NCBI RefSeq assembly: GCF_015143595.1
Contig: NZ_WYEU01000002.1
Span: forward strand, 558,001-622,000
Direction: 5' to 3'
Source of the DNA: Sneathiella sp. P13V-1
GTDB lineage: Bacteria > Pseudomonadota > Alphaproteobacteria > Sneathiellales > Sneathiellaceae
DNA length: 64,000 nt
This document shows positions 5,833 through 60,327 of this stretch, one piece after another. Within the stretch, counting starts at the first letter, position 1. Every line of letters begins with the position of its first letter. The notes under the pieces were generated by a model. That model was not told where the DNA came from and made no database searches. It saw nothing but the letters and a program-made list of their open reading frames with translations. The position numbers and the translations under genes are program-made.

Positions 5833-6143
5833 ATTGTACGATTTTAAAAAAAGTTCTTAGGTAATAATGTCGAGATCATCATCTCTGGATGTCGACACCT
5901 TTATTTTCGCGGAAATTTCATGTTCCATGTATGTCGATAGATATTAAGCATTTATGCGGCCAACGATCCGTGAAAGCCGATGTTTTTGTTTCCGTTTATT
6001 GAGGGTGCTTAAATACTCAATACCAATCGTTAAATCTTGCACCTTCAACAACCATCCCTCTTTGTTGTTCGGGTGGTTAAACGTATTGAATCTTGATCCA
6101 AGCTGCTCAAAAGAGTTTCATGGTCGAGCGTTAGGTCTTCCGC
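5833..6143. other. Intergenic region without a convincing gene
   Basis: The 311 bp between glmS and the LysR gene holds no supported gene. Near 5869-5896 there are nested short inverted repeats (GAGAT/ATCTC inside GTCGA/TCGAC), but no U-tract, so a terminator is doubtful. On the minus strand a stop-free frame of about 57 codons ends at 5944; it has no start codon, and its Lys/Arg-rich end (for example K-R-K-Q-K-H-R-L) resembles no family I know. It may be a coding remnant or chance. Confidence 0.4.
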
Positions 6144-59305: not shown

Positions 59306-60292
59306 ATGAACCTCACCATTAATGGGGAAGGCCGCCAGTTTGATCGCGCCTTGACCATTGCAGAACTCCTTGTGGATCTGGAACTGGATGGCGGCAAGGT
59401 TGCCATTGAACGCAATCTTGAGATCGTTCCCAAATCTACTTATGGCGAAACACAGCTGGTAGACGGCGATAAATTGGAAATCGTTCACTTCATTGGTGGC
59501 GGAAATACGGATACGGATATGGAAAATGATCCTTTCATAGTGGCGGGGCAGGAACTTAAATCCCGTCTGATTGTTGGAACCGGCAAATACAAGGATTTCG
59601 AAGAGACAAAACTTGCTATTGAAGCCTCTGGTGCTGATATGGTGACTGTGGCCGTACGCCGTGTGAACATCACGGATCGGAACCAGCCAATGCTGGTAGA
59701 TTATGTGGATCCGAAGAAATACACATACCTTCCGAACACAGCATTCTGTTACACCGCTGACGAAGCCCTTCGGACATTACGCTTGGCCCGTGAAGCAGGG
59801 GGCTGGGATCTGGTGAAACTGGAAGTTCTTGGGCACGAAAAGACATTGTATCCAAATATGCCGGAAACCCTAAAGGCTGCTGAAACATTGATCAGCGAGG
59901 GCTTTAAGGTGATGGTTTACTGCTCAGATGATCCGATCATGTGTCAGGAACTTGAAGATATGGGATGTGTCGCCATCATGCCGTTGGGCGCACCGATTGG
60001 ATCCGGCCTTGGCATTCAGAACCCTGTCGGCATTGGCATCATTAAGGATCAGGCGAAGGTTCCTGTGATTGTGGATGCGGGTGTCGGTACAGCATCAGAT
60101 GCGACCATAGCTATGGAGCTTGGCTGTGATGGTGTGTTGATGAATACAGCGATTGCGCATGCAAAGAACCCAATCATCATGGCATCTGCCATGAAAGACG
60201 CGGTGACAGCGGGACGTAAATCCTTCCTTGCAGGCCGAATGCCACGTAAGAAATACGCCGATCCAAGCTCTCCGCTTGCAGGACTTATCTAA
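59306..60292 (+). CDS. thiSG: Fused sulfur carrier ThiS and thiazole synthase ThiG
   Basis: A 328-residue single reading frame. Residues 1-66 are a ThiS ubiquitin-like sulfur carrier ending at the Gly-Gly-Gly (64-66), and residues about 74-328 are ThiG, with the imine-forming Lys171 in L-V-K-L-E-V-L-G and the phosphate site G-A-P-I-G-S-G-L-G. ThiG makes the thiazole of thiamine from deoxyxylulose phosphate, dehydroglycine and ThiS thiocarboxylate. Such fused proteins are known (bifunctional ThiS/ThiG). An ATG at 59519 (Met72) could allow separate ThiG translation. Terminated by the hairpin at 60298. Confidence 0.95.
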
Positions 60293-60297
60293 AAAAC

Positions 60298-60327
60298 AAA
60301 GGCGGCACTTAGCCGCCTTTTTATTTG
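60298..60327. terminator. Bidirectional terminator between thiSG and the MarR gene
   Basis: Perfect 9-bp stem AAAGGCGGC / GCCGCCTTT (60298-60306 with 60312-60320), 5-nt loop, then TTATTT on the plus strand; A-rich sequence before it gives a T-run on the minus strand. Confidence 0.85.

Follow-up and report, generated by a model that had tools for sequence, protein, structure and literature searches.

Adenylation of the sulfur carrier ThiS requires its free carboxylate. Proteins in which ThiS is fused to ThiG have been reported for many proteobacteria and for Rubrobacter xylanophilus (Iyer 2006, PMC1779556), and one sentence of that paper raises the possibility that ThiS or MoaD is released from fusions by a JAB domain, which would free the C-terminus for sulfur transfer. 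The MoaD-MoaE fusion MoaX of Mycobacterium tuberculosis is cut between Gly82 and Ser83, i.e. after the second Gly, and this cutting is needed for function; the abstract describes the protease as yet unidentified (PMC4326299). DRJAMM (DR0402) of Deinococcus radiodurans cuts a MoaD-MoaE fusion and leaves a C-terminal Gly (PMC8832034), and M. tuberculosis Mec+ works on the C-terminal end of a carrier resembling ThiS, releasing cysteine from the CysO adduct (PMC3227635). In the present study, a ThiS-ThiG fusion gene (thiSG) was investigated in a 64,000-nucleotide stretch of the genome of Sneathiella sp. P13V-1 (contig NZ_WYEU01000002.1, positions 558,001 to 622,000; the window). The best explanation, and one that we consider quite probable from the sequences compared, is that the fused ThiS is cut after Gly66 by the JAMM peptidase of the cell, for which the failure to find a spare ThiS, a retained triple glycine and a co-evolving peptidase are the reasons.

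The pairing is the one reported in 2006; here an unlinked JAMM gene is named and its coupling to the fusion is counted (PMC1779556). With MoaX the fusion has in common that a carrier is joined to the enzyme it serves and that the Gly-Gly is internal; MoaX serves molybdopterin synthesis, whereas ThiSG serves thiamine synthesis (PMC4326299). The fusion cut by DRJAMM likewise belongs to the other pathway, and there the protease was tested, while that of ThiSG is a candidate (PMC8832034). Mec+ frees cysteine from a CysO adduct, whereas the case considered here would be the cutting of a fusion (PMC3227635).

The thiSG open reading frame (ORF) lies on the plus strand, as do all features of the window given below, at positions 59306 to 60292 and encodes 328 amino acids plus stop, uninterrupted from ATG to stop. 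Residues 1-66 (59306 to 59503) make up the ThiS domain, as judged from the structural model described below and from matches of TIGR01683 (ThiS) to residues 3-66 with 68.6 bits (cut-off 37.45) over the full profile (1-64 of 64) and of Pfam ThiS (PF02597) to residues 4-66 with 46 bits. The ThiG domain, residues 79-323 (59540 to 60274), was matched by Pfam ThiG (PF05690) with 360 bits over profile positions 2-247 of 247, i.e. as a full-length domain. Relatives in the PDB were the ThiG chains 1wv2, 1xm3 and 1tyg chain A and, for the carrier, 1tyg chain B. Entry 1tyg is a Bacillus subtilis-type ThiS-ThiG complex in which each half of the fusion has a matching chain; the two are separate there and form a single chain here. 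With both domains in one ORF, the gene belongs to the ThiS-ThiG fusion class of Iyer 2006.

The encoded chain runs on beyond Gly66 and thus has no free C-terminal Gly-Gly. The codons of Gly64-Gly65-Gly66 span 59495 to 59503, and conservation together with low model confidence places the putative scissile bond after Gly66. A linker, residues 67-78 (59504 to 59539), follows, which differs in length and sequence among relatives and contains the ATG of Met72 (59519 to 59521). The original prediction had described just this arrangement, a single ORF with internal glycines and Met72 close behind, and the translation and the profile matches bear it out. An AlphaFold2 model built with 41 fused sequences showed both ThiS and ThiG folded, with a mean predicted local distance difference test score (pLDDT) of 84.1; means per ten residues were 90-96 for residues 1-60, and pLDDT fell below 50 at residues 64-72. 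The low values would fit an exposed linker that is predicted to be disordered, but do not probe the cutting itself.

The genome of the window (G000; 9 contigs, 3.7 Mb, 100% complete) was searched with PF02597 at E values up to 10. Only two proteins were found, ThiSG and an 83-residue protein directly preceding moaE, which passes the MoaD model TIGR01682 and has a clean GG end. Neither a second free ThiS nor a CysO-like carrier was seen in this search. According to the original prediction, a second free thiS in the genome would have spoken against a role of the fused carrier; the other carrier proved to be MoaD. The prediction had also called for a look-up of thiF. With PF00899, one E1 protein above the cut-off and 11 weak fragments below it were obtained; the E1 (254 residues, C1:858497-859210) passes the MoeB model and adjoins an ORF read as cysteine-synthase-like. 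PF14464 (Prok-JAB) matched in three places, two of them below the cut-off (24.6 bits in a 312-codon frame, and 15.3 bits). The third is a JAMM gene at G000:C3:166778-167089 on the minus strand, unlinked to thiSG, whose 137-residue protein scored 76 bits and carries the intact motif HSHPDGDARPSKTD. Having both the Prok-JAB domain and HxHx7SxxD, which we take to be the signature of the JAMM family, it was assigned to the JAMM/MPN+ peptidases. Its nearest NCBIfam model is desampylase, with 70.2 bits against a cut-off of 130, so that it is related to desampylases but is not filed as one; PDB relatives were 2kks, 2kcq and JAMM1. The gene is flanked by ORFs read as RluD-like and threonine-aldolase-like.

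The junction was compared among relatives, of which the best 80 of 371 related loci were retained in a search that favours full-length matches. Since the same single ORF occurred in 79 of these 80 loci, the fusion is neither a chance event nor a sequencing slip. All 80 fused genes, the window and the 79 loci, retained the triple glycine, as FIGGG or FVGGG, and the distance from there to the ThiG core varied between 13 and 32 residues. The residue following the glycines was S in 36, A in 21 and N in 15 genes (72 of 80 together). The remaining locus (L083, Terasakiella brassicae, from position 6001) is a natural split form with a stop between the ThiS and ThiG domains: its ThiS ends in GGGC, ThiG follows from a GTG, and the genome has a JAMM gene.

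These junctions also bear on the second option of the original prediction, a separate translation of ThiG from Met72 or, more widely, an internal start at this or another codon that would yield ThiG in addition to or instead of the fused chain. An ATG was present in the linkers of only 10 of the 80 fused genes, so that Met72 is not conserved, and no Shine-Dalgarno match (at least 3 bases, spacing 4-12) precedes Met72 in the window. Any of ATG, GTG or TTG between the glycines and the ThiG core was found in 46 genes, while 34 had none. Of these 46 starts, 25 had a Shine-Dalgarno match of 4-6 bases placed 4-12 bases upstream, partly formed by the glycine codons, and a comparable match preceded 32 of the 80 real ThiS starts. 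Internal starts, where they exist, thus look no worse than real ones and are not dismissible in all relatives, and the ThiG of T. brassicae, as read from the DNA, does begin at such a GTG past a stop. Separate translation is nevertheless disfavoured by the genes that have no such start, by the rarity of an ATG and by the missing match at Met72; it would also leave the C-terminus of ThiS unfreed, and as an account of this fusion it appears very improbable. In five relatives (L053, L057, L058, L067 and L073) the glycine codons make up a GGAGG ten bases ahead of an in-frame GTG. To judge from these sequences, ThiG might in those five also be started internally.

To relate the fusion to the peptidase, 144 genomes of Alphaproteobacteria with a completeness of 90% or more, chosen regardless of fusion, were searched for ThiG and Prok-JAB (class draw). 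True ThiG, defined by E values of 3e-80 or better (the next hit had 1e-9), was present in 79 genomes, which were read at sequence level: 33 had a fused gene, always with the triple glycine, 43 a separate ThiS, and three ThiG but no ThiS nearby. A JAMM gene, counted above 45 bits, was found in 32 of the 33 fused genomes and in 2 of the 46 non-fused ones (Fisher 1.4e-18). In one of these two (G143) the separate ThiS ends in GGG-ALS, and when fused and tailed carriers were grouped, JAMM was present in 33/34 against 1/45 of the others. Separate ThiS proteins of the same type (above 60 bits) that stop cleanly at GGG occurred in 14 genomes, none of which had a JAMM gene. One further hit, in G099, lacked the motif and lay inside a 776-codon frame; it was dropped, and its inclusion would give 3/46 non-fused and 1/14 clean genomes. 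A 35-bit hit in a 540-codon frame (G054) was under the line and was not counted. Over all genomes whose JAMM loci were read, HxHx7SxxD was found in 40 of 41 loci.

The same data address the third option of the original prediction, an altered sulfur-transfer route, in which ThiSG would work uncut, ThiS being merely structural and sulfur reaching ThiG otherwise. It would accord with the conservation of the entire chain; however, a structural domain need not retain all three glycines, which all 80 fused genes do, and the 14 clean separate carriers of the same type stop exactly at GGG. The genome encodes a MoeB-type E1, and the tail of ThiS is conserved, so that this route found no support. In the work on MoaX, moreover, the uncleaved variant G81A was inactive, although according to its authors the mutation itself may have acted directly (PMC4326299). 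We give very little credence to an uncut function. Among the three options, cleavage after the glycines is thus favoured, indirectly, by the failure to find a spare ThiS, the invariant GGG and the co-occurring JAMM, and the other two are not.

Shared ancestry was considered with an RpoB tree that covers 63 of the 79 genomes, and this control is limited to a single gene tree, rooted at its midpoint, and to one optimiser. Two fused genomes with JAMM (G067 and G108) and one non-fused genome (G045) were left out for want of an RpoB hit; the tree does not include 13 further non-fused genomes either. Fusion required nine changes on this tree and JAMM likewise nine. In a Pagel-type test of dependent evolution, run with a script of our own, the likelihood ratio (LR) was 43.3 for fused and 47.0 for fused-or-tailed carriers (nominal p 9e-9 and 1.6e-9), while across 91 simulations without dependence the LR averaged 3.0 and never exceeded 15.5. 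MoaE was weakly associated with the fusion (Fisher 0.002; LR 14.7) and with JAMM (Fisher 0.02; LR 8.4). An explanation of JAMM by the molybdopterin genes was rejected, since 35 of the 68 MoaE-bearing genomes had no JAMM, although some background association remains. Lineage structure contributes to the link between JAMM and fusion but does not account for it.

Two wider collections were examined. The phylum draw comprised 299 genomes, with JAMM accepted at E values no higher than 1e-8; its table lists only part of the weaker ThiG matches, and divergent fusions may have escaped it. All 40 listed in-frame, stop-free fusions, 29 of which were re-read, were in genomes with JAMM, and 35 of the 40 had not appeared in the class draw (12 within the class and 23 outside it). 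A further 44 genomes, from the 45 that were named out of 80, consisted of 43 fused ones and the split T. brassicae, some of them apparently repeating other draws (same coordinates or linker); JAMM was found in 40 of the 43 and in T. brassicae. Split ThiS proteins with residues after the triple glycine were seen five times, four times in genomes with JAMM, the tails being ALS (G143), SLF (G218), NNA (G393) and C (L083). Within family f133, the tailed genome G393 had JAMM and the clean genome G370 did not.

A number of observations weigh against a simple coupling of peptidase and cutting. The fifth tailed carrier, that of G306 (L208), ends in GGGC in a genome without JAMM at E 1e-8. Fused genes without a detected JAMM were found in G042 (92% complete) and in the named genomes L040, L070 and L082, all three metagenome-assembled; the linker of L070 is identical to that of G042, and the two may be the same genome. 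JAMM was present in 125 of the 299 phylum-draw genomes, including 85 of the 259 without a listed in-frame fusion, and in the class draw it occurred without ThiG in G036, G053 and G016. Clean ThiS was accompanied by JAMM in G014, G312, G324 and G255, and in one genus (g146) with clean ThiS in both genomes, G255 had JAMM and G258 did not. In family f140, 37 genomes had JAMM, and the seven whose ThiS was read all ended in clean GGG. Nine ORFs around seven JAMM genes were examined; seven matched a Pfam family, but none a thi family. Only 4-5 independent pairs on supported branches were available; JAMM changed along with the fusion in 3 or 4 of them and against it in none, which by itself falls short of significance (p 0.125-0.25). 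Finally, the E1 of G000 scored below the ThiF equivalog cut-off (244.5 vs 275.25), and its action on ThiS is for this reason only inferred.

Part of the clean genomes with JAMM contain another possible substrate. Carriers read as CysO-like were present in G157 and G147 (f140), G144 and G217, ending in GGC or, in G217, in GGG, and in the first three the carrier precedes a cysteine-synthase-like ORF; by their sequences, these carriers may be what JAMM serves in the four genomes. G312, G324 and G255 showed no CysO-like carrier, only ThiS and MoaD types besides weak matches. The CysO-like carriers at L345, L348 and L350, in two genomes of f140 and one of f137, end in IVPAIAGGC ahead of a cysteine-synthase-like gene; their one-Cys tail may be removed by JAMM. 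In G306, ThiG apparently begins at an overlapping TTG. On the sequences surveyed, JAMM appears to be nearly always present where ThiS would need freeing, yet is by itself no sign of a fusion.

Several of these exceptions would also suit a cut after Gly66 by a different protease, with JAMM co-occurring through another ubiquitin-like substrate or through lineage history. Fused genomes without a detected JAMM number four (perhaps three distinct), other lineages have JAMM but no fusion, no linkage to thi genes was seen at the seven loci, and the weak association of MoaE with both fusion and JAMM indicates that lineage background plays some part. On the other hand, JAMM follows fused-or-tailed ThiS on the RpoB tree far past the null, MoaD, the one further member of the ThiS family seen in G000, already ends cleanly in GG, and the 68 MoaE-bearing genomes still split into 32 fused with JAMM and one without, against one non-fused with JAMM and 34 without. 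We therefore regard a different protease as unlikely, though as the strongest of the alternatives.

In the reading we prefer, cutting by JAMM, ThiS and ThiG would be made as one chain, and thus in equal amounts, with ThiS in the form of a pro-protein. The bond after Gly66 would be cut by the unlinked JAMM-type metallopeptidase, which would expose the C-terminal Gly-Gly of ThiS; the MoeB-type E1 could then adenylate the freed carrier, leading to the thiocarboxylate, which ThiG would use for the thiazole of thiamine. We infer the cut, its site and JAMM as its agent, and the chemistry is carried over by analogy from the established biology of ThiS, ThiF and ThiG. JAMM as the cutter is also supported by the fact that a member of this class cuts MoaD-MoaE (PMC8832034). 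The comparisons suggest that JAMM peptidases act on such fusions from unlinked genes.

To one side of thiSG lie aroQ, accB, accC and aat; its other neighbours are a protein with matches to MarR-type models that stay below the cut-offs, and a 4-hydroxyphenylpyruvate dioxygenase. As these are not thi genes, thiSG stands apart from the other thi genes. Just past its stop, a GGCGGC-loop-GCCGCC hairpin followed by a T-run (60301 to 60326), read by eye, is a likely terminator. Neither a thiamine pyrophosphate riboswitch nor any other Rfam RNA was found in the window at gathering thresholds. ThiC (PF01964), found in 13 of 14 control genomes, had no match in the complete G000; the strain appears to retain the thiazole branch, and the pyrimidine (hydroxymethylpyrimidine) would be needed from outside or by another route.

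The ThiS-ThiG fusion itself was already known, and what would be new is a thiamine version of a JAMM-activated carrier fusion, with a named gene and counts, pending experiment. In a search of the open PMC library, which leaves out most subscription papers, no processing test of ThiSG was found beyond the suggestion of 2006, and absence from print is not claimed. How a buried sulfur carrier gains its free Gly-Gly matters for thiamine synthesis, and fusions are common, occurring in 33 of the 79 ThiG-bearing alphaproteobacterial genomes. The candidate protease is named, and the phenotype expected of its deletion, a requirement for thiazole or thiamine, is testable. The finding points to a processing step within vitamin synthesis that resembles that of ubiquitin precursors. 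If this holds, JAMM genes distant from any thi gene would acquire a possible role. We lean towards the wider view that thiamine synthesis in many Alphaproteobacteria, and in additional families beyond this class, includes an obligatory but overlooked step performed by an unlinked JAMM peptidase, with ThiS a pro-protein, either ThiG-fused or short-tailed, and with the peptidase gained or lost together with the need for cutting.
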